The notes beneath the pieces were generated by a model. It was not told the DNA's origin and searched no databases. It saw only the letters and a list, made by a program, of their open reading frames with translations. This document shows positions 7,899 through 19,632 of a stretch of DNA of 20,212 bases, piece after piece (position 1 is the stretch's first letter; every line of letters begins with the position of its first letter). A program made the translations under genes and the position numbers. The stretch is from a virus. The stretch is from IMG/VR virus record IMGVR_UViG_3300048010_000356, positions 1-20,212 of that record; one strand, given 5' to 3'.

Positions 7899-9101
7899 GT
7901 GGCGCTACAAATTAGGAGGGGGACTTCTGCGGATGTAACCTCTGAAAGCTTTGTGCCACTACTTGGTGAGCCATTATATTTAACTGACAATCAAAAGCTT
8001 TATATTGGTGACGGCAGTACTCAAGGCGGAAATGCTATTGGTGGGGCAACTGATTTAAATGAATTAACTTCAGTTACTTTAATCGATGAATCAGTAGGAG
8101 CTTTAGATTTATATTCAGTTACATCAAATACTGTTTTAATAACATTATCAGTAGGTCAAAGTGCTTATTATGTAGGGCTACAGGTCGTCATTTCTAATAG
8201 CTCAGTCGCAGCATTAAATGGCACGCATACAATTACAAGCATTCCGACAGGCAGTCAGTTCACCTTTTCGCTGACAACTGCAGATGTAACCTCTGCAAGT
8301 GTTACGGGTGTGGTAACACCAAAAATTCCAAATGGAAATGTTTTAGCTTGGAATGAAACAAATTCATACTGGGAAAATGCTCAAGCACTTTCTGACGTAG
8401 TCAACGATACCACTCCGCAACTCGGCGGAAACCTGGATACAAATAATAAAACTATTACTAGTACTGGAACTAATAATATTGAATTTGATCCAGCGACCGG
8501 GCAGAATGTAATACTTAAAGGTAATGCAACTGATGGTTCAGGACGAATTAAATTAAATTGCGAAGTAAACAGTCATGGTGTTGTTATTAAAGGTCCACCA
8601 CATAGTGCAGCAGCAACATACACATTAACCCTTCCTAACGCACTGCCTACAGTTGCAGGACAATCTCTAACGTCAGACACAAGCGGTAATTTAAGTTTTA
8701 CCACCGTTAGTGGAGGAGGCGTTGCGACAAGAACAAGTGCCAATGCAACTACAGCTTCTATAGCCGACGGCGCATCTGCTGACATGACAATTACTGGCGC
8801 AAAGTCTTATATGCTTATGTCGATTCAAACCAGTGCAGCTGCCTGGGTTACTGTATACACAAGCACTGCTACCAGAACCTCAGATGCTTCTAGGAGTAGC
8901 AATACTGATCCATTGCCAGGTAGTGGCGTTATAGCTGAGGTTATTACAGGTGCAGCAACTACTCAAAAAATCACGCCAGGGCTATTAGGTTTCAATGATG
9001 AAGCTACACCCACCTCAGACATTTATTTGAAGGTAGAAAACCAGTCTGGATCAGCCGCCGCCATAACAGTAACTTTAAGTCTTTTAGTCCTTGAGTCATG
9101 A
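7899..9101 (+). CDS. Tail fibre protein with tropism-determinant-like head
   Basis: A 400-residue protein starting at GTG. The start is supported by the first residues, MALQIRRGTSADV, followed by GEPLYLTDNQKLYIGDGST. This is the short head domain found at the N-terminus of many phage fibre proteins and of major tropism determinants. Residues ~85-142 (YYVGLQVVISNSS, LNGTHTITSIP, FTFSLTTAD, VTGVVTPK) match the C-terminal module of the preceding 736-residue protein. Then come fibre segments with ALSDVVNDTTPQLGGNLDTNN (~162-182) and a GRIKLNCEVNSHGVVIKGPP to AGQSLTSD part (~215-260), both familiar from cyanophage fibres. The last ~125 residues are a Thr/Ser/Ala-rich beta domain that could be the receptor-binding tip. 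Its stop overlaps the next start as ATGA, so the fibre and the protease are probably co-translated. Receptor unknown. Confidence 0.75.
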   Translation: MALQIRRGTSADVTSESFVPLLGEPLYLTDNQKLYIGDGSTQGGNAIGGATDLNELTSVTLIDESVGALDLYSVTSNTVLITLSVGQSAYYVGLQVVISNSSVAALNGTHTITSIPTGSQFTFSLTTADVTSASVTGVVTPKIPNGNVLAWNETNSYWENAQALSDVVNDTTPQLGGNLDTNNKTITSTGTNNIEFDPATGQNVILKGNATDGSGRIKLNCEVNSHGVVIKGPPHSAAATYTLTLPNALPTVAGQSLTSDTSGNLSFTTVSGGGVATRTSANATTASIADGASADMTITGAKSYMLMSIQTSAAAWVTVYTSTATRTSDASRSSNTDPLPGSGVIAEVITGAATTQKITPGLLGFNDEATPTSDIYLKVENQSGSAAAITVTLSLLVLES

Positions 9102-11335
9102 GCACTTTTGAGTATGTTGTTACGCTTTTAAATCGCGGTGATTTAGATGCATTTTACGCTGACATGGAGACACTGGGACACACTCGTGCTGAGGTGCCAG
9201 AAAGAGAGGTCGAATGTTTTCAACGAAGAGAGATAAGTAGAAATACTCATTACCTGCTTACTGAAGAAGAAGCTGGAGCTCTCAAGTCTGATGACCGGGT
9301 TAGATGTGTTCAATTGCTTGACGAAATACCTGAATTAACTAAGAATGCATCTCAGACATCTTATTTCAATAGGGGGTATGTCTCTGACAGTAATCATACA
9401 AGTCATTGGCACAACACTGACAAAAACTGGGGATTGTATCGTAATTTTGTAGACACAAGTACCGCAAACTGGGGAGAGGAAAGTAGCAATGCAAATGCTT
9501 TTCCTAGAGTCAATGCAACAATCTCATGGAACTTAGAGGGGCAAGACGTTGATATTATTATTAATGATGACCTAATCGACCCAAACCATCCTGAGTATGC
9601 GATCAATGATGATGGCACAGGCGGATCACGGGTGCAAAATATTGACTGGACTGATTATTTGTCTAGTGGCAGTGTTGCTCATTGGAAAAGCATTTTCTTT
9701 GATTACACAGAAAACCATGGAGCCTTGTGCGCTTCTAGTGCTGCTGGCAATACGCATGGATTAGCTCGTAAATCAAATATTTACTGTCTTGAGGCATCAG
9801 GAAGGCCTAAATTCGCAAAATTTAAAGCTACGAGAACAGGGTCTCTTTTGACAGTTGTTTCTGTAGAATCTGGAAGTGAACCTATAGCTGTAGGTCAAAG
9901 AGTTTATGGTACTTCAGATACAAACATTGGCACTACAAGAACAATCTCTAGTCTTGGCACTGGCACTGGAGGCACTGGCACTTATTACCTGAGTTCAGCT
10001 CCATCAGGAGATCATTTATTCGTCGACGATTATTTCACTGGACATTCGAGTGCTGGTCAAAATTACATGTGGGATTACATTAGAGCTTTTCATAAAAATA
10101 AGCCGGTAAATTCTACGACAAATAGGCGCAACCCTACCGTTGTTAACGCTAGCTATGGGTTTGTAACCTATTATTATTACAGTAATTTAAGTTCTGTTCA
10201 GTACAGAGGCACGTCATATACTTCATCAAATACAACATGGACAAACGACAATTTACATGGCAGCTTTGGTATTGTTCCTGCCCCATATTTCAACGAAACA
10301 AACTCTAACGCTACTCAATTTAGTTACACCTCTACAAGTGCATCGCTGCAATCTGACATAGAAGATGCTATTGAAGATGGCATAATGATTGTCGCTGCGG
10401 CTGGCAACTCACAGCATAAAATGGATGTCAGTGGTGGGTTAGATTTTGCGAATACATTTAATAACTACTCCTCTTATTCTTATCATAACGGTGGACTTTT
10501 TGGCCCTACTGGTGCAATTGTAGTAGGGGGACTTGATAATGCAATATCTTCAGGTAACGAATTAAAATCAGACTCTAGTAACACGGGACCAAGGCTAGAT
10601 GTCTATGCCGCTGGCGTTAGTGTTTTAGGCACTGATTCTGGCGACAAAGTTTTTGGCAATATTGTGTCCTGGTCGATAACCAATAATGTGGCAACTTTTA
10701 ATATACAAGGCGAAAATTACTTTTTCAATAATGCGAATTATGCAGTGTATGGTGGCAATACCGTGCGAATAAAAATACAAATGGACAGCTCTTCGCAATT
10801 TAATGGTTACCACGATTTTAAAGGGATCGTTACGGCCAGCGGCGCATCAAATCCAACTGGTTTTACAATTGATTTTACAGCAGCTGATACGTCTCTGACA
10901 ACTGAAGATGGGTCTTTCTATAGTTGCAGTGAAAATAGCCCAAAAATCTTATATGCATATCATTTATGCGATCCAAGAAATGACAATAAGTATTTATACC
11001 ACGCAACCGGCACAAGCTTTTCCGCACCAATAACAACAGGATTGGTTGCATGCTGGATGGGTTATTTTGGTCGACTTGATAGAGAAGAATTTAAAGCTTT
11101 AATTGCAGAAAACGGCGCTTTGAATAAAATGACTGCAGGAGCAACAGACGATTATGATGATCCTCGTGCTCTCTTAGGTGGTCCCAATACTATACAACGA
11201 TACAAAGAGTTTCGACCAAGTTCTGGATTTACCTATCCTCAAAACACCCATAAAGCAAGAAGCACAGCAACAGTAAAAGGACAAACTAGTTATGTAGCTT
11301 TTCCAAGGCAAAGAGTTTTGAGATACGGGTCGTAG
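9098..11335 (+). CDS. Subtilisin-like (S8) serine protease with two inserted domains
   Basis: A 745-residue protein. Residues ~1-80 have the size and strand-helix pattern of a subtilase I9-type propeptide (EYVVTLLNRGDLDAFYADM ... LLTEEEAGALKSDDRVRCVQ). The catalytic triad is readable: Asp157 in VDIIINDDLIDPNHPE, His207 in ENHGALCASSAAG, Ser640 in GTSFSAPI. The oxyanion Asn is 437 (VAAAGN), and VVNASYGF is the usual strand near 348-355. The Asp motif is D-D-L rather than D-S/T-G, and His is followed by GAL rather than GTH, both mild departures. Two insertions interrupt the domain: ~239-310 (AVGQRVYGTSDTNIGTTRT, GTGTGGTGTYYLS) and ~514-632, between Asn and Ser. No signal peptide is seen. The gene overlaps the fibre gene by ATGA and precedes the scaffold gene. 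It may be a virion-associated enzyme cutting host surface or phage proteins, or a capsid maturation protease; the sequence does not decide. Confidence 0.85.
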   Translation: MSTFEYVVTLLNRGDLDAFYADMETLGHTRAEVPEREVECFQRREISRNTHYLLTEEEAGALKSDDRVRCVQLLDEIPELTKNASQTSYFNRGYVSDSNHTSHWHNTDKNWGLYRNFVDTSTANWGEESSNANAFPRVNATISWNLEGQDVDIIINDDLIDPNHPEYAINDDGTGGSRVQNIDWTDYLSSGSVAHWKSIFFDYTENHGALCASSAAGNTHGLARKSNIYCLEASGRPKFAKFKATRTGSLLTVVSVESGSEPIAVGQRVYGTSDTNIGTTRTISSLGTGTGGTGTYYLSSAPSGDHLFVDDYFTGHSSAGQNYMWDYIRAFHKNKPVNSTTNRRNPTVVNASYGFVTYYYYSNLSSVQYRGTSYTSSNTTWTNDNLHGSFGIVPAPYFNETNSNATQFSYTSTSASLQSDIEDAIEDGIMIVAAAGNSQHKMDVSGGLDFANTFNNYSSYSYHNGGLFGPTGAIVVGGLDNAISSGNELKSDSSNTGPRLDVYAAGVSVLGTDSGDKVFGNIVSWSITNNVATFNIQGENYFFNNANYAVYGGNTVRIKIQMDSSSQFNGYHDFKGIVTASGASNPTGFTIDFTAADTSLTTEDGSFYSCSENSPKILYAYHLCDPRNDNKYLYHATGTSFSAPITTGLVACWMGYFGRLDREEFKALIAENGALNKMTAGATDDYDDPRALLGGPNTIQRYKEFRPSSGFTYPQNTHKARSTATVKGQTSYVAFPRQRVLRYGS
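9956..9982 (+). repeat. GGCACT hexamer repeats inside the protease gene
   Basis: GGCACT occurs at 9956, 9962, 9971 and 9977, with one GGA triplet between the second and third copies. It encodes the Gly-Thr run GTGTGGTGT of the first inserted domain. The run is typical of this kind of beta-module, and the reading frame is kept. Confidence 0.7.
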
Positions 11336-11376: not shown

Positions 11377-12114
11377 ATGTCTGAAGAAAACACCAAAGCC
11401 TCCGAGATGGAGACTGGCGGCCAAGAACTCACACCACAGATCAGTGCTGAGGATAAATCTCAGTACAGTCCAGATGAGGTCGCCAATCTCGTTAAAGCAC
11501 TACGTTCTGAACGTGAAGCTCGTAAAACTTATGAGCGTCAATACAAAGATAAAGAACAGCAACTTTTAAAACTAAAAGATGTTGATTTAGATCGTTACCA
11601 ACAACTTGAGGCTGATGCTGCCCGTGCGGCTGAGATTGAATCACGTTATGGTGAGACAATTCAAGCTATTGAAGAAAAGTATGGAAGGCAGACAGCAGAA
11701 GCTGAAGGCAAAGCCAAACAAGCTGAAACGCAAATTAATGAATTTAAAAAGCGTTATGCTCTTGAGAAGGTATTTACTTCAGCTGGTGGACGAACTGATT
11801 CTGCCGACGGCGTATCTTTTTTCGACATGTTCGCAGAACAGATGAGTAAGCGGTTTAGGCAAGAGGCTAACGGCAGCATTACTGTTGTCGATGAGCAAGG
11901 TGATCCTATTCTTGATAGCGAATCTGGCAAGCGAATTTCGCCTGAAGACTTTGTAAGCAGTTACAAAACACATCCTGTCTACGGCACTTTCTTTAAAGGA
12001 GTCAAGGGTTCAGGTGCTGGATTGAACTATGCCGGGACAGATGCAAACGGAATGCCAGTAGAAGATTTATCGTCATTGTCTAGAGAAGAATTATTCTTAA
12101 AGGCATTCGGATAA
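11377..12114 (+). CDS. Capsid scaffold protein
   Basis: A 245-residue, highly charged protein. Residues ~1-30 are acidic and polar (MSEENTKASEMETGGQE). Residues ~33-135 are almost continuous predicted coiled coil rich in Glu, Lys, Gln and Ala (VANLVKALRSEREARKTYER through AEGKAKQAETQINEFKKRYA). A short conserved-looking part follows (VFTSAGGRTDSADGVSFFDM). The end is acidic with a terminal helix (DLSSLSREELFLKAFG). This is the usual build of head scaffold proteins, and the gene sits directly before the major capsid gene. Known role of the family: an internal core that directs procapsid assembly and is then removed. A strong terminator follows the stop within 8 bases. A hairpin covers the probable ribosome binding site. 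No protease domain is fused to it. Confidence 0.8.
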   Translation: MSEENTKASEMETGGQELTPQISAEDKSQYSPDEVANLVKALRSEREARKTYERQYKDKEQQLLKLKDVDLDRYQQLEADAARAAEIESRYGETIQAIEEKYGRQTAEAEGKAKQAETQINEFKKRYALEKVFTSAGGRTDSADGVSFFDMFAEQMSKRFRQEANGSITVVDEQGDPILDSESGKRISPEDFVSSYKTHPVYGTFFKGVKGSGAGLNYAGTDANGMPVEDLSSLSREELFLKAFG

Positions 12115-12211: not shown

Positions 12212-12230
12212 CAGGCAGGGTGTTCGAGTT

Positions 12231-12245
12231 AGAGCGTGATGCTCT
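12231..12245 (+). promoter_or_regulatory. Hairpin with GTGAT loop, capsid leader (second)
   Basis: AGAGC-GTGAT-GCTCT is a perfect 5-bp stem around the same 5-base loop, 32 bases before the AGGAG ribosome binding site at 12277-12281. Same build as the hairpin before the scaffold gene (AGGGA/TCCCT), with different stem bases. Confidence 0.5.
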
Positions 12246-12291
12246 GGACACGTTTCACCTTTCCTCCATTAACCACAGGAGTTTAATTCTA

Positions 12292-13194
12292 ATGGCTTTA
12301 AATCTATCCGAGGCTAAAAAGCACTCTCGGAACCCCCAAGAACTGGCAGTTGTCACAGAACTGGCTGCTGGTCCTCTGCTATCCGTTCTCCCTTTCCGCG
12401 ACATTCAAGGCAACGGCCTTTTCTGGAAGCGTGAAGAGAGCCTCGGAGACGTGGGTTTCCGTAACTACAACGCTAACTACACCGAAAGCTACGCTGAGGT
12501 AAGTCAGCAGTCTGAAAGCCTTCGTCTGTTTGGCGGAGACATCAAAATTGACCGCGCAATCCTTGATCTAGAAGGTGGCGAGTCACGCGCTTATCAGGTT
12601 CAATCCAAGACCCGCGCAATGCGTCTTTCTTGGGAATCCCTGTTCATCAATGGCGACTCTAACCAGTCTCCTTCTGAGTTTGATGGCTTGGCTGCTCGCA
12701 TGCCGGCGGCTGATCACGCAACTAATTCACAAGTTATTCGTAACGCTTCTAGCGCCGCGACTCTTGACTTAGGTGCTCTTGATGAAGCAATCGACTCTGT
12801 TGATGCACAAGGCGGTACTAAGTACTTGGTTATGTCCAAGTCTGCACGTCGTGCTTTGACAACTAAGGCCCGTGCCTCCGCTCAGATCGACATTGCTCGT
12901 AACGAGTTTGGCTATCAGCAGATGGTTTACGCCGGTCTGCCTGTCATCGAGCTTGATCGTGACCACCAGAACGCTGCAATCCTTGATTCCACCCCTGCTG
13001 ATCAATCGATCTATGTGGTGACCTTCGGCAATGACTTGCTGACTGGTATCCAGAACGGCGGCATTCAGGTTCGTGACTTGGGCGAAAGCACTGCTTCTCC
13101 TCAAATCATCGTTCGTGTTGAGTGGTATTGCGGACTGGCTATGGTTAATGGCCGTGCTGCTGCTCGCCTGACTAACGTTAACGCAACTGTCTGA
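12292..13194 (+). CDS. Major capsid protein
   Basis: A 300-residue protein. The start chosen is ATG 12292, because AGGAG at 12277-12281 lies 10 bases upstream and MALNLSEAKKHSRNPQELAV is a plausible N-terminus. The frame is open further back to a TTG at 12220, which is rejected. The sequence has the pattern of a short HK97-fold coat protein: an N-terminal helix, a middle with SWESLFINGDSNQSPSEFDGLA, a helix ALDEAIDSVDA, then TKYLVMSKSARRAL, GYQQMVYAGLPVIELD and a strand-rich end (QIIVRVEWYCGLAMVNGRAAARL). No cleaved delta domain is obvious; a scaffold is encoded separately. Codon use (CGT, GGC, AAC, GAC, CTT) differs from the more AT-rich fibre genes and fits very high expression. Terminators lie on both sides, so the gene appears to be its own transcription unit. 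Confidence 0.88.
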   Translation: MALNLSEAKKHSRNPQELAVVTELAAGPLLSVLPFRDIQGNGLFWKREESLGDVGFRNYNANYTESYAEVSQQSESLRLFGGDIKIDRAILDLEGGESRAYQVQSKTRAMRLSWESLFINGDSNQSPSEFDGLAARMPAADHATNSQVIRNASSAATLDLGALDEAIDSVDAQGGTKYLVMSKSARRALTTKARASAQIDIARNEFGYQQMVYAGLPVIELDRDHQNAAILDSTPADQSIYVVTFGNDLLTGIQNGGIQVRDLGESTASPQIIVRVEWYCGLAMVNGRAAARLTNVNATV

Positions 13195-14647: not shown

Positions 14648-15406
14648 ATGGCGGTAAGGATAACCTCTGCAGAATCAATCAAGCAGGCTATTCTTGCTGA
14701 TGTTTTACTGCGTGAAATATTTGTCAAAGTACAGGTCAACCAAACAGGACTAGCACCAATTGCTTTAGGACCAAGTGTTGGTATTCTTGGTATTCCTTCA
14801 ATTAGTGATTTTGAAGCTACTTGGAAGCTTGCAATCATTGGTTTAACTAGTCTAGAATCTAAGCAAGTAGCAGATTCGCTTGAGAGAATATTTATTGGAG
14901 CGTCGTTCAAATTTTCTAATAACGACATCCAGGTTAGTATCTTTTCGCTGGCAACACGAGAAGTTTTAGAATCTGCAGAAGAACAGCAAAAATTAAAGAA
15001 AGATGCCCAGCGGTCAAAGAATCTTGAGAAGGCGATTGAATATGCTGAGAATTTAAAAAGCGGCATCGATGGCCAAAGAGGTATTCAAGGTATTGCAGGA
15101 GCAAAAGGCGAACCTGGACTACAAGGGCCACCGGGAAGAGATGGACAAGATCTTGTTGCTACTGAAGCCGAGCTTCATGACTTAAAGGATGTTTTTATTC
15201 CTGATCCAAGAGTTGGCCAGGTATTAACATGGGATGGAGCTAGTTGGGTTTCATTGTTTGTGCCACAAACGTACAGATATGCTGGAAGCGGTATAGAGGA
15301 AGCACCTAATGACGGTAATTATTATGTACGCCAAAACAAAGTTTGGATTCTGCTTTCTGAGGCATTAGGCAATACAGGTATCGAATCAGGAGACTTTGAC
15401 CCGTAA
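14648..15406 (+). CDS. Collagen-like tail fibre / structural protein
   Basis: A 252-residue protein. Residues ~1-100 are a mixed domain (ITSAESIKQAILADVLLREI, GLTSLESKQVADSLERIF). Residues ~103-137 are a charged coiled-coil-like helix (ESAEEQQKLKKDAQRSKNLE). Then come ten uninterrupted collagen-type Gly-x-y triplets (~139-168), from GIDGQRGIQG to GPPGRDGQD. The C-terminal ~80 residues form a small domain (ATEAELHDLKDVFIPDPRVG, LTWDGASWVSLFVP, YYVRQNKVWILL) that resembles the tip segments of other fibre proteins. Coiled coil plus collagen repeats indicates a homotrimer. A fibre, or a linker between fibre and tail, is the likely role. A GGCAGACTAG motif lies before the start and a GGAATACTAG motif after the stop. 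Confidence 0.75.
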   Translation: MAVRITSAESIKQAILADVLLREIFVKVQVNQTGLAPIALGPSVGILGIPSISDFEATWKLAIIGLTSLESKQVADSLERIFIGASFKFSNNDIQVSIFSLATREVLESAEEQQKLKKDAQRSKNLEKAIEYAENLKSGIDGQRGIQGIAGAKGEPGLQGPPGRDGQDLVATEAELHDLKDVFIPDPRVGQVLTWDGASWVSLFVPQTYRYAGSGIEEAPNDGNYYVRQNKVWILLSEALGNTGIESGDFDP

Positions 15407-15434: not shown

Positions 15435-16568
15435 ATGCCAACCCCCGCTAATCGTGCAAAGATACAGGTAGCAAGGGGTTCCTTTACGAATATTTCTGCT
15501 AGCCTTTCCGATCTGCTTGATGGAGAGCTTTGTTACGCAAAAGACGAGAATAGACTTTATGTGGTTGAGGGTACAACCCTTACACCAGTAACGGCAGAAG
15601 ACGATGATGTTTTAGTCGAAGTACATAATCAATCTGGTTCAGATATTGTAAAAGGCAAGCCTGTCTATGTCAGCGGGACTCATAGTTCAGGTAAGCCAAT
15701 TGTTGAATTAGCTGATAATAATGGATCAGGAACTTATCCGGCGATTGGCCTTGTCCATGAAACAATTACGAATGGTGCTGATGGCAAAGTAATCATCAGT
15801 GGCTTGCTCACAAATATAGCTACAAGTACTTTAGGTAGCGCCGGAGATGCTCTTTATATTGATTCTACTGCCGGTGGTTTAACTACAACAAGACCTACTG
15901 CTGCAACAGAAAAAGTACAAAAAGTTGGATTAATTACAAGGTCACATGCTTCAAATGGCAGTATTATAATTATTGGTGCTGGACGTACAAATGATATTAA
16001 CAATGAACTTGTTGCATTAACAGGTGTTAGTTTAAACGCTACTAATTTAGGAACGTTTACTGGATTAACAATTCCAGATAATCAAGACATTAAAAATGCA
16101 CTGCAAGCATTAGAAACTAAAGCAGAAACGGCTATTGTTGATGCTGATATTTCCGCAACAGCTGAAATTGCGGTAAGCAAACTAGCAAATGGCACCGTTA
16201 ACCAAGTACTGGTTACTGACGGCACAGATGTTAGCTGGTCCGATAATTTAACGATTGCCGGCAATCTCACAGTTTCCGGCACAACTACTACTATTGATTC
16301 ACAGACTCTTACTATTGAAGATAAAAATATTGAACTTGCAAAAGTCACGACCCCAACAGACGTTACTGCCGACGGCGGTGGTATTACATTAAAAGGCACG
16401 ACCGACAAAACAATTAATTGGATTGACGCAACTGATGCATGGACATTTAGTGAGCATATTAATATTGCAGATACAAAAGAATATAGAATGAATGGCACAG
16501 CCGTTTTAGCTTATTCTGGATCAGACAAGATTCTTGATAACGTTATTGTTGACGGTGGCACGTACTAA
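15435..16568 (+). CDS. Tail fibre protein, 377 residues
   Basis: The N-terminus (ANRAKIQVARGSF, then LLDGELCYAKDENRLYVVEG) is a diverged tropism-determinant-like head. Residues ~56-180 are a beta domain (VEVHNQSGSDIVKGKPVYVS, PAIGLVHETITNGADGKVII, GDALYIDSTAGGLTTTRP, GLITRSHASNGSIII). Then follow modules familiar from cyanophage fibres: ETAIVDADISATAEIAVSKL (~233-252), DGTDVSWSDNLTIAGNLTVS (~261-280), TIDSQTLTIEDKNIELAK (~286-303) and TPTDVTADGGGITLKGTTDK (~306-325), ending in NGTAVLAYSGSDKILDNVIV. Such modules make up long trimeric fibre shafts. No catalytic motif is visible. The translation start has no Shine-Dalgarno sequence but carries the GGAATACTAG motif 28 bases upstream. Confidence 0.8.
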   Translation: MPTPANRAKIQVARGSFTNISASLSDLLDGELCYAKDENRLYVVEGTTLTPVTAEDDDVLVEVHNQSGSDIVKGKPVYVSGTHSSGKPIVELADNNGSGTYPAIGLVHETITNGADGKVIISGLLTNIATSTLGSAGDALYIDSTAGGLTTTRPTAATEKVQKVGLITRSHASNGSIIIIGAGRTNDINNELVALTGVSLNATNLGTFTGLTIPDNQDIKNALQALETKAETAIVDADISATAEIAVSKLANGTVNQVLVTDGTDVSWSDNLTIAGNLTVSGTTTTIDSQTLTIEDKNIELAKVTTPTDVTADGGGITLKGTTDKTINWIDATDAWTFSEHINIADTKEYRMNGTAVLAYSGSDKILDNVIVDGGTY

Positions 16569-16570
16569 TC

Positions 16571-16580
16571 GGTAACCTAG
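16571..16580 (+). promoter_or_regulatory. Intergenic motif copy 6 (GGTAACCTAG)
   Basis: GGTAACCTAG follows the TAA after two bases; 7 of 10 positions match the core, and it is followed by TTCGCCGTT. It lies 62 bases before the next ATG; unlike copies 1, 2, 4 and 5, a GGGAG ribosome binding site is present downstream. This is the weakest of the six main copies. Confidence 0.3.
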
Positions 16581-16584
16581 TTCG

Positions 16585-16598
16585 CCGTTATATAACGG
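16585..16598 (+). promoter_or_regulatory. Perfect 14-bp palindrome CCGTTATATAACGG
   Basis: CCGTTATATAACGG is a perfect inverted repeat without a spacer in the 64-base gap before the 154-residue fibre gene. There is no T tract, so it is not an intrinsic terminator. It may be a protein-binding site or contain a -10-like TATAAC. The ATG at 16633 has its own GGGAG at 16624-16628. Confidence 0.5.
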
Positions 16599-16632
16599 TG
16601 TACCGGCCTACATAGGCACAAAAGGGAGCCAC

Positions 16633-17097
16633 ATGGCTAACACTATCAAACTAAGGCGTTCCGCAACGTCTGGGGCGGTTCCTACGGCTAGTCAGCTTGC
16701 CTTAGGCGAGTTAGCGATGAATACTTTCGATGGAAAGTTATTCATTAAAACAGATCAAAGTGGTACAGAGTCAATCGCTGAGATTGGCGCAGGTGGTAGC
16801 ACAGTTACGATTGCAAGCACGCCTCCAGGAAGTCCTAATGTAGGAGATATCTATTGGGATGATGTTGATGGTTCAGCATACATCTATTACGATGACAGCG
16901 ACACTCAGCAATGGGTATCATTAAGTGCTGCAGCTTCAGCAGTTGATTCTGCATTTATTGAAACTCCGCAATCTATTTCAACTGATAAAACAATTGCTGC
17001 TAGTACAAATGCAGGAATGATGGGACCGACAGTTGCCATCAATTCAGGTATATCTATTACTGTCGGAGCTAATTCTCAACTTACTGTGCTTAACTAA
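16633..17097 (+). CDS. Short tail fibre protein, 154 residues
   Basis: Starts MANTIKLRRSATSGAVPTAS, continuing QLALGELAMNTFDGKLFIKT: the third head domain of the tropism-determinant-like kind in the window. Residues ~62-97 (IASTPPGSPNVGDIYWDDVD, SAYIYYDDSDTQQWVSLS) are the PP-x-x-P-x-x-GD-x-(W/Y)WD motif common in phage fibre and neck appendage proteins. The C-terminus (STDKTIAASTNAGMMGPTVA, INSGISITVGANSQLTVLN) is another beta module I recall from cyanophage fibres. The ATG has a good ribosome binding site (GGGAG). Its size suggests one link of a fibre made from several gene products, together with the next two genes. The following ATG lies two bases after the stop. Confidence 0.75.
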   Translation: MANTIKLRRSATSGAVPTASQLALGELAMNTFDGKLFIKTDQSGTESIAEIGAGGSTVTIASTPPGSPNVGDIYWDDVDGSAYIYYDDSDTQQWVSLSAAASAVDSAFIETPQSISTDKTIAASTNAGMMGPTVAINSGISITVGANSQLTVLN

Positions 17098-17634: not shown

Positions 17635-19632
17635 ATGGATCCTATTACACAACAAACAGTATTAGCTGCAGCAGGTGCAGCAGGTGCAGGTCCGCTTTAT
17701 GTTGATGATGTTTTTAGTACTTATGTATATGAGGGTACAGGGCTATCCAAGCAAATTACAAATGGACTTGATTTAGCTGGTGAAAAGGGGTTAGTTTGGT
17801 TTAAAGCTAGAGAGTCCTTATCTTCACCTTACACTAATCTTGAATTGCACTGTTTATTTGATAATGTTAGAACAGGAGCTACTGGTGGAAGCGCAGGTGG
17901 AGGTGGTAGATTACGAACGGACTCGAGCCAAGGGGCTCAGCCAGATACTTATTTAGACTCATATAATTCTAATGGATTCACAATTACACCAAATTCTACG
18001 GAGAGTGCTGCAAATCTTATTAACCAGAGTGGAAAAGAATTCGTCTCTTGGTCATTCCGCAAAGCGCCTGGTTTCTTTGATGTAGTTACATATAACGGTG
18101 ACCCAAATGGCAACCCTCAAAGCATTTCTCATAATTTAGGCAGTGTGCCTGGGATGATACTGGTTAAAAGAACTGACACTACTGAAAATTGGCATGTTTA
18201 TCATAGGTCTACTGGTGCTACTAAGTATTTAATTTTAGATGCTAATAATTATGAAGCTAGCGGATCTAGCATCTGGAACAACACAACACCTACGTCCACT
18301 AATTTTACTGTTGGTACTAATGGTGCCGTAAATGGCTCTGGCGGCACCTACGTTGCCTACATCTTTGCCCATGACGACGCACAATTTGGCACGGATGGTG
18401 ATGAAAGCATTATTAAATGTGGCAATTATACGGGAAACTACACAAGCACTTCTCCTATTAATCTAGGGTTTGAGCCGAGCTTTGTAATTATCAAGGGTAC
18501 ATCCGAGAACACCGATTTTGACTGGAGAATGTTTGACAATATGCGGGGTGTAAACACTGGAAGTAATGATATATCACTCTGTGCTAACACAGCGTCCGTA
18601 GAATTAGCCGGTACTAACTATGACCGCGACTATATTAGTTTTACTCCGACAGGCTTTGAGGTAAAGTCTAACGACAATTCGGTTGCTCAATCAGGTAAAA
18701 ACTTCATCTACATGGCAATCCGCCGTCCGAATAAGCCGCCTGAAGCTGCAACGGAAGTGTTTGCTATTGATACAGGAAATGGATCTTCATCTATCCCAAC
18801 ATGGGACAGCGGGTTTCCTGTTGACATGGCGCTTGCCAAAAGCACCAGCAATGGTGACAGCTTTATGCCAGCAAGACTTATCGGGTCTAAACAATTAAAA
18901 CCTACTGGACATGCTATCGAAAGTAGTGACGGTTCTTTAACTTGGGACTCAAATGCAGGATGGGCTAAGGACTACAACAGTGCTTATATTTCTTACATGT
19001 TCAAACGTGCCCCAGGTTTCTTTGATGTAGTTGCTTATCCGGGTGAAGGAGGAAGTAACAGGTCTGTAGCACACAATTTAACCGTAACGCCAACGTTGTG
19101 GATTACTAGAAATAGATTGTCAATTGGAGGTTGGTATGCCAACTACACAGTAGTTGATGGCAGTTGGGATTATCTAAGACTTGATAACGACGGATCAGTA
19201 ACTGGTGTAGGAGGTGGCCTTACATTACCTACGTCAACAGCATTTTTTGTAGATTCAAGTGGTGGGAGTGATATCAGTGGTGACACTTATATCGCTTACC
19301 TATTCGCAACCCTACCCGGCATCAGTAAAGTAGGTACTTATTCTGGTGATACTGGAAATGCAGTTAACGTTGACTGCGGGTTTACGAATGGTGCCAGGTT
19401 TGTATTAATCAAAAGAACCGATAGCTCTGGCCATTGGTATCTTTGGGATACAACTCGTGGTTACAATGGAACCACTGATAACTTCTTACTGGTAAATAGT
19501 CCCTCAGGGGAAAACGCTAATATAGCCAATATTGATGATCATCTTGACGCATTACCTGCAGGATTTACCGTAAGAGCTTCGTCAGGAGTTAATACTTCTG
19601 GTGCAACCTACATCTTCCTTGCAATCGCTTAA
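17635..19632 (+). CDS. Large repetitive tail fibre / receptor-binding protein, 665 residues
   Basis: A short N-terminal helix with Ala/Gly (LAAAGAAGAGP) precedes six diverged beta repeats: ~21-144, 145-247, 257-363, 374-459, 460-560 and 562-665. A typical unit has a start like GFFDVV-x-Y-x-G, a NLG/GF-x-P segment, (I/V)LVKRT or LIKRT, an aromatic W-x-(V/L), then FTV and an end such as GGTYVAYIFA. I associate this unit with a domain of unknown function found in marine phage tail proteins (possibly DUF7483). Units 1-3 and 4-6 look like copies of one three-unit block: PGFFDVV occurs at 145 and again at 460, both in FRKAPGFFDVV-like context. No enzyme motif is seen. A receptor-binding or adhesion role is inferred. 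The ATG lies one base after the preceding TGA without a Shine-Dalgarno sequence. Confidence 0.75.
   Translation: MDPITQQTVLAAAGAAGAGPLYVDDVFSTYVYEGTGLSKQITNGLDLAGEKGLVWFKARESLSSPYTNLELHCLFDNVRTGATGGSAGGGGRLRTDSSQGAQPDTYLDSYNSNGFTITPNSTESAANLINQSGKEFVSWSFRKAPGFFDVVTYNGDPNGNPQSISHNLGSVPGMILVKRTDTTENWHVYHRSTGATKYLILDANNYEASGSSIWNNTTPTSTNFTVGTNGAVNGSGGTYVAYIFAHDDAQFGTDGDESIIKCGNYTGNYTSTSPINLGFEPSFVIIKGTSENTDFDWRMFDNMRGVNTGSNDISLCANTASVELAGTNYDRDYISFTPTGFEVKSNDNSVAQSGKNFIYMAIRRPNKPPEAATEVFAIDTGNGSSSIPTWDSGFPVDMALAKSTSNGDSFMPARLIGSKQLKPTGHAIESSDGSLTWDSNAGWAKDYNSAYISYMFKRAPGFFDVVAYPGEGGSNRSVAHNLTVTPTLWITRNRLSIGGWYANYTVVDGSWDYLRLDNDGSVTGVGGGLTLPTSTAFFVDSSGGSDISGDTYIAYLFATLPGISKVGTYSGDTGNAVNVDCGFTNGARFVLIKRTDSSGHWYLWDTTRGYNGTTDNFLLVNSPSGENANIANIDDHLDALPAGFTVRASSGVNTSGATYIFLAIA

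Follow-up and report, generated by a model that had tools for sequence, protein, structure and literature searches.

A subtilase gene coupled to a fibre gene in a cyanosiphovirus: comparative analysis of the locus and a possible role at the phage tail

The subtilase gene and its fibre partner

We have analyzed a viral sequence of 20,212 bases, the whole of IMG/VR record IMGVR_UViG_3300048010_000356 (hereafter the window), with respect to an open reading frame (ORF) at positions 9098-11335 that is predicted to encode a subtilase. The gene lies directly behind a fibre gene and in front of the genes for the head scaffolding and major capsid proteins (Table 1); contigs nearly identical to the window exist in IMG/VR. 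The gene order, which runs from tail-tip genes through a series of fibre and structural genes to the scaffold and the coat protein, resembles that of the S-CBS2, S-CRES and PSS2 phages. The coat protein is 68-72% identical to its counterparts in S-CBS2 and S-CRES1-3 and 51% identical to that of PSS2. By sequence comparison the source of the window is an S-CBS2/S-CRES-like cyanosiphovirus and, since both the coat protein identity and the gene order match those of cyanosiphoviruses, the host is probably a marine picocyanobacterium.

The initial annotation of this ORF, made from the window alone, had described an S8 protease with an intact set of active site residues (Asp157, His207, Asn437 and Ser640), and this assignment is borne out by an alignment of 84 homologues. 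The Asp and His residues are kept in all 84, the Asn in 81/81 and the Ser in 80/80 of the homologues that have a residue in the column, with gaps in 3 and 4 of the 84 sequences, respectively. The alignment excludes the named phages and four contigs (L025-L028) that are copies of others in the set. Each scan kept its best 80 loci and is biased towards the query, and the counts given here on 84 homologues, 92 subtilase genes and 84 ORFs of the partner domain include near-identical contigs. A chance ORF is ruled out by the 84 homologues with fixed catalytic residues.

When searched alone, the window protein matched 0 Pfam families, and a single-sequence phmmer search of PDB sequences gave no match. 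Peptidase_S8 (PF00082) was matched by 61 of 63 aligned family members, and the family alignment profile matched aqualysin among PDB sequences with an E-value of 1.2e-29. An AlphaFold2 model built from the 63 sequences (mean predicted local distance difference test score, pLDDT, 75.4; predicted template modelling score 0.72) superimposes on proteinase-K-type structures with Z 32-34 and root-mean-square deviation (rmsd) 2.1-2.6. The values are Z 34.4 and rmsd 2.3 over 275 aligned residues for 8c4z, and Z 33.4 for proteinase K itself (2prk). The product is thus a subtilase by sequence and by modelled fold, with predicted activity. A host-derived auxiliary gene was also considered. A genome scan with the family alignment produced a single relative, on the contig of a Rickettsiales metagenome-assembled genome, among the at least 589 pattern matches listed, so that a phage family is the more likely origin, though not a proven one.

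Some members of the family are elaborated. One contig encodes tandem subtilases of 917 and 1089 amino acids (L065:5274-8024 and 8039-11305) with long extra sequence within or before the catalytic part. In several contigs, among them L023 (5983-8904) and L024 (5260-7317), the subtilase C-terminus is a plastocyanin-like segment with a TYYYxCxxHxxM pattern; the subtilase of ACG-2014h matches Copper-bind with E 0.0014, below the Pfam cut-off.

As the initial annotation had noted, the subtilase start codon and the stop codon that ends the fibre ORF (7899-9101) overlap in the sequence ATGA. Such close linkage is general. Among 92 subtilase genes (the window, the IMG/VR loci and nine named phages), 90 start no more than 20 nucleotides (nt) from the end of an ORF on the same strand, the commonest spacings being +1 (39 genes), -4 (15) and -1 (10). 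By profile count, the same domain, which we call domain X, stands at the C-terminal end of 74 of the 92 upstream ORFs, while the remainder of the ORF varies widely in length. The association is reciprocal: a reverse scan using domain X alone found 80 loci with 84 domain-X ORFs, and a subtilase is directly next in 75 of these. Eight others are followed by another gene or none and one by the end of the contig. In L115, L123 and L168 the domain-X ORF precedes a different gene family, with proteins that start MAIVQR... or MAIQNN...; this family may be a substitute partner in the same position.

Comparison of annotated cyanophages places the subtilase within the tail-fibre cluster. In nine annotated cyanomyoviruses it is always directly behind another gene, in fibre/baseplate clusters, and domain X is found in that upstream gene in 7 of 9. 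The 18 upstream ORFs that lack the domain include those of S-SCSM1 and P-SSM2. A tree of the subtilases divides at its midpoint by a split with 98/92 support, one side of which consists of 13 subtilases, all without domain X; on the other side only L065, L068 and L082 lack it, among the rows whose upstream ORF was examined. Domain X is modelled with confidence (pLDDT 97) as a beta sandwich of eight strands. Structural comparison gave a mixture of unrelated jelly-rolls as the best matches, with Z up to 7.7, and for that reason no relationship is claimed.

Inserts and terminal segments of the subtilase

The two beta-rich interruptions of the catalytic domain that had been proposed at residues ~239-310 and ~514-632 are real, with boundaries placed here at about 236-312 and 513-622, and the GTGTGGTGT motif reported for the first of them is located within insert 1. 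The segment of residues 226-325 is 98 amino acids long in 9/9 sequences of the window clade vs 18-36 in the other 75 homologues, and that of residues 506-638 is 130-137 amino acids long in the clade vs 25-39 in the 71 others that reach it. Two more distant contigs, L111 and L112, have the same scaffold gene as the window and catalytic cores identical to that of the window at 270/534 and 208/533 positions. They also carry both inserts and, on this comparison, the inserts are confined to, and mark, the whole of the cyanosiphovirus branch sampled. Insert 2 changes fastest: between L007 and the window it is identical at 55/110 positions, as compared with 53/77 for insert 1 and 422/557 for the core.

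Structure prediction, which had been suggested as a check on the inserts, gave all-beta models for both (AlphaFold2), with moderate confidence for insert 1 and low confidence for insert 2. The description of the inserts as fibre-like holds for the first, which matches a tail fiber protein family (phrog_38233, E 4.6e-7). For the second, neither PHROG nor a tblastn search of the phage collection at E 0.01 gave a match. Insert 1 also gave no match by tblastn. A structure comparison against BFVD yielded many matches of ~80 columns to phage structural proteins; that these cover insert 1 is deduced from their length. No fold is claimed for insert 2, because model confidence there is 36-62. Alignment with aqualysin places insert 1 behind the strand after 'aniY', and insert 2 in the interval from 'APG' to 'GTS'. 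The loops that hold the two inserts presumably flank the subtilisin cleft on its non-primed and primed sides, and on account of this position the inserts probably limit or select substrates.

No signal peptide was seen by eye in the window subtilase, which begins directly with a pro-domain-like segment. Residues 3-80 are predicted to fold in the order beta-alpha-beta-beta-alpha-beta (AlphaFold2); as far as residue 70, blocks of this segment have pLDDT 81-93. An I9 pro-domain is common, although not universal, in the S8 family. Inhibitor_I9 is the commonest Pfam match of the family's N-terminal segments (18 of 49 at E <= 1, best 0.0023), the window segment itself giving none, and a profile of the region returned only three irrelevant PDB sequences at E about 1. 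An I9-type pro-domain is therefore likely from sequence and model, but not proven.

At the opposite end, many subtilases of the family terminate in a sequence of the type RPxSGxxYPRxR. In its strict form, RPxxGxx[FY]PR, the pattern occurs among 129 subtilase ORFs 33 times close to the C-terminus and 7 times at more internal positions. Of 3592 ORFs other than subtilases (607,409 residues, with spurious ORFs counted), 7 also have it, in every case no more than 19 residues from the C-terminus, vs a chance expectation of 0.0 (mean of 20 shuffles). These seven are PSS2 gp090, S-SCSM1 gp139 and gp137, and small ORFs in L020, L101, L168 and L181, which are alike in pairs (L020 with L168, L101 with L181). 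PSS2 gp090 adjoins the scaffold gene on its upstream side, and S-SCSM1 gp137 bears a virion-protein label in its record. Four gp090 peptides in virions are reported in the PSS2 study (PMC2784084). A divergent S-CAM1 relative (79.6 bits; L187:1658-3913, minus strand), annotated as a tail fiber, has Glu aligned with the catalytic Asp and retains both the C-terminal motif and the domain-X partner, a 1-nt gap separating the two genes. The occurrence of the motif in subtilases and in unrelated fibre-cluster proteins, together with its retention beside the partner in the S-CAM1 relative, suggests that it is a docking peptide.

The unrelated fibre-cluster proteins with a terminal RPxxGxx[FY]PR are encoded at L013:18596-19024, L104:13679-13921 and 15594-16700, L020:5639-5920, L101:3853-4116, L168:2780-3061 and L181:1801-2076. 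A PHROGs search of six other fibre-cluster proteins, five with the C-terminal motif, gave no match.

Table 1. Coordinates of the features of the subtilase locus in the window
Feature	Position	Strand	Basis
Fibre gene, 400 aa, N-terminal Mtd_N and C-terminal domain X	7899-9101	+	Mtd_N PF18454 E 2.7e-12; phrog_9627, phrog_15343
Domain X (name coined here), 125-aa C-terminal jelly-roll of the fibre	8724-9098	+	Alignments, model pLDDT 97, association counts
Subtilase gene (S8, proteinase-K type), 745 aa	9098-11335	+	ATGA overlap with fibre gene
N-terminal domain, probable I9-type pro-domain, residues 3-80	9104-9337	+	Predicted fold order; Pfam matches of family
Catalytic Asp157 codon	9566-9568	+	Alignment
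Catalytic His207 codon	9716-9718	+	Alignment
First insert (residues ~236-312), beta domain of phage-fibre type	9803-10033	+	Branch-restricted; phrog_38233
Oxyanion-hole Asn437 codon	10406-10408	+	Alignment
Second insert (residues ~513-622), rich in beta structure, modelled with low confidence, evolving fastest	10634-10963	+	Alignment, model
Catalytic Ser640 codon (GTS motif)	11015-11017	+	Alignment
Conserved C-terminal peptide with FPRQR, window form of family C-terminal motif	11279-11332	+	Phe735 invariant in alignment A1
Head scaffolding protein	11377-12114	+	phrog_206 E 1.1e-23
Major capsid protein	12220-13194	+	phrog_212 E 1.7e-71

Elsewhere in the window, the true start of the coat ORF is probably the ATG at 12292 and not the upstream GTG, since the S-CRES relatives align from about residue 22-25. 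A 665-residue protein (17635-19632) has a strong match to DUF7483 (E 3.7e-81) and is probably a virion protein. The protein encoded at 14648-15406 has a short collagen-like stretch and matches collagen-like tail fibre families.

Virion association and alternative roles

An indication of location comes from S-SCSM1, whose subtilase homologue gp144 (1411 amino acids, with an added Laminin_G_3 lectin domain, E 2.7e-26) carries a virion-protein label in the genome record. The full record has 47 coding sequences with this label, and the S-SCSM1 paper gives 45 proteins by mass spectrometry of CsCl-purified phage (PMC9602691). The label is also borne by proteins of non-structural appearance, a translational repressor and NMNAT among them. 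As no predictor would call these structural, the label tracks the experiment closely.

We consider it most likely, with a probability of roughly 0.6, that the subtilase is a protease which travels on the virion, docked to a fibre, and serves in adsorption. From the domain order the protein may be synthesized as a zymogen whose pro-domain is I9-like, and the gene overlap suggests that it is translated together with its fibre. It would then dock on domain X, the jelly-roll at the fibre C-terminus, possibly helped by its own C-terminal peptide, and be carried at the phage tail; the reciprocal gene pairing, the one virion-labelled homologue and the common C-terminal peptides all point to docking and tail carriage. 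At adsorption the enzyme may cut a cyanobacterial surface protein, much as tailspike depolymerases cut polysaccharide, while in the cyanosiphovirus branch the beta inserts in two cleft-bordering loops would restrict or choose the substrate. The protein would play no part in head maturation. An earlier suggestion of a virion enzyme acting at the host surface or on fibres accordingly has strong support from the comparative data, in the fibre pairing, the virion-labelled homologue and the fibre and lectin domains; between action on the host surface and action on the fibre, sequence does not decide.

Several observations weigh against a fibre-docked virion enzyme. Domain X is present in S-CBS2 and S-CRES1-3, and S-CBS2, S-CRES2 and S-CRES3 have no subtilase; the existence of cyanosiphovirus relatives without it indicates that the lineage can do without the gene. 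The window protein does not match the strict C-terminal motif, of which it has only FPRxR, and docking on domain X is deduced from gene order alone. The label of S-SCSM1 gp144 is taken here from the record annotation, and this homologue belongs to the branch that lacks domain X. The S-SCSM1 authors themselves warn that some detected proteins may be carry-over (PMC9602691). For the window phage and its clade, no proteomics was found.

The chief rival is a fibre-maturation protease that cuts its partner fibre, for instance in the linker before domain X, and need not stay in the virion; the cut would release domain X as a trimerisation chaperone or expose the tip. The pairing involves one particular C-terminal domain in a fixed position, as would suit a substrate no less than a docking site. 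Domain X, moreover, starts at an invariant Arg (R3), ahead of which S-CAM1 has a glycine-rich linker. The same S-CBS2, S-CRES2 and S-CRES3 fibres tell against this role, since they possess domain X and evidently need no subtilase. The virion label of gp144 also disfavours it, and the fusions with lectin and plastocyanin-like domains are more in keeping with a protein on display than with an enzyme of assembly. The S-CAM1 relative keeps the pair and the C-terminal motif despite the Glu at the position of the catalytic Asp. On these grounds we regard fibre maturation as unlikely. That same relative, with its tail fiber annotation, is what favours a fibre subunit with a structural function and the fold of an enzyme, in which proteolysis is no longer essential or is limited to self-processing of the pro-domain. 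In the family proper, however, the four catalytic residues are invariant, which is not expected without selection for activity, and a purely structural role seems quite improbable.

The initial annotation had also proposed a replacement prohead protease, here one that would cleave scaffold and coat protein, from the position of the gene. The next gene encodes the scaffold (phrog_206, 11377-12114), followed by the major head protein (phrog_212), and all cyanosiphovirus contigs of the clade that extend far enough show the subtilase immediately ahead of the scaffold. No prohead protease of known kind was found among the window proteins scanned with Pfam and PHROG. Like prohead proteases, then, the enzyme adjoins the scaffold and coat genes in this clade; unlike them it is of another fold and family (S8, and not S77, S78, S49 or Clp-type), and comparative tests contradict such a role from two directions. 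S-CBS2, S-CRES2, S-CRES3 and PSS2 are complete relatives with scaffold and coat genes as in the window. Their whole records gave no match to the subtilase profile and 0/4 matches each to Peptidase_S78, S77, S49 and CLP_protease. Because this holds for all four, the scaffold/coat pair by this comparison works without a subtilase or any of the four prohead-protease families, and the absence of a known prohead protease is normal for the cyanosiphovirus lineage. The scaffold homologue gp091 is itself found in PSS2 particles, with 14 peptides against 43.5 for the coat protein gp092, the two being named otherwise in the paper (PMC2784084). Conversely, the T4-like cyanophages S-SCSM1 and S-CREM1, the two tested, have one S77 and one subtilase match each, so that the subtilase occurs there alongside a prohead protease. 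Beyond the window clade the partners of the subtilase are fibres, and a homologue of the window scaffold was not found in those loci. A part in head maturation is thus scarcely credible.

Relation to known systems and significance

The subtilase family is already annotated in T4-like cyanophages, where it corresponds to phrog_9158 and T4-GC 292 and is recorded as 'subtilisin-like serine protease' (S-H38, S-WAM2) or 'peptidase' (S-CREM1); S8 peptidase genes in cyanophages are mentioned in PMC3037559. The window subtilase shares with these proteins 28-41% identity (tblastn), a match to phrog_9158 (E 2.3e-64), the catalytic set and a place directly behind another fibre-cluster gene. Unlike the T4-like members, the window branch is siphoviral, precedes the gene for the head scaffold and carries the two beta inserts. 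The literature searches found no paper on a cyanophage subtilase as a virion enzyme or on the fibre-subtilase pair. As far as these searches show, three features appear to be undescribed: that the subtilase and domain X are paired in both directions, that a C-terminal peptide is shared, and that a siphovirus branch bears the inserts.

The catalytic fold is common to the window subtilase and the secreted S8A subtilases of the proteinase K/aqualysin type, from which the window protein differs in its phage fibre partner and its cleft-side loop inserts. Kexin and furin are subtilases with a C-terminal jelly-roll P-domain. Domain X resembles the C-terminal jelly-roll of the Tk-SP subtilase with Z 6.6-6.7, a score tied with those of unrelated jelly-rolls and indicating a common fold only; unlike in Tk-SP, the jelly-roll here sits on the partner fibre, in trans. 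With tailspike and tail-fibre depolymerases the subtilase may share the placement of an enzyme at the receptor-binding end of the tail. It differs from the tailspike enzymes in that it is predicted to cut protein and not polysaccharide, is a separate gene product and belongs to no depolymerase family.

As a tentative extension, which we hold to be possible at best, the locus may represent an exchangeable two-gene cassette spread across cyanophage tail types, in which a fibre jelly-roll docks a subtilisin zymogen in trans, in the manner of a P-domain. The tip would then carry a true protein-degrading enzyme that opens a surface protein layer of the cyanobacterium, with cleft-side inserts tuning the target and RPxxGxx[FY]PR serving as a general docking tag of fibre-cluster proteins.

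Phage tail enzymes are known mainly for cutting sugars or the cell wall. Isolates for a comparison are at hand, since S-CREM1, S-H38 and S-WAM2 carry the subtilase, and S-CBS2 and S-CRES2 have the fibre domain without it. If the proposed role is correct, a widespread fibre-paired protease would point to the surface proteins of Synechococcus and Prochlorococcus as a barrier to infection.

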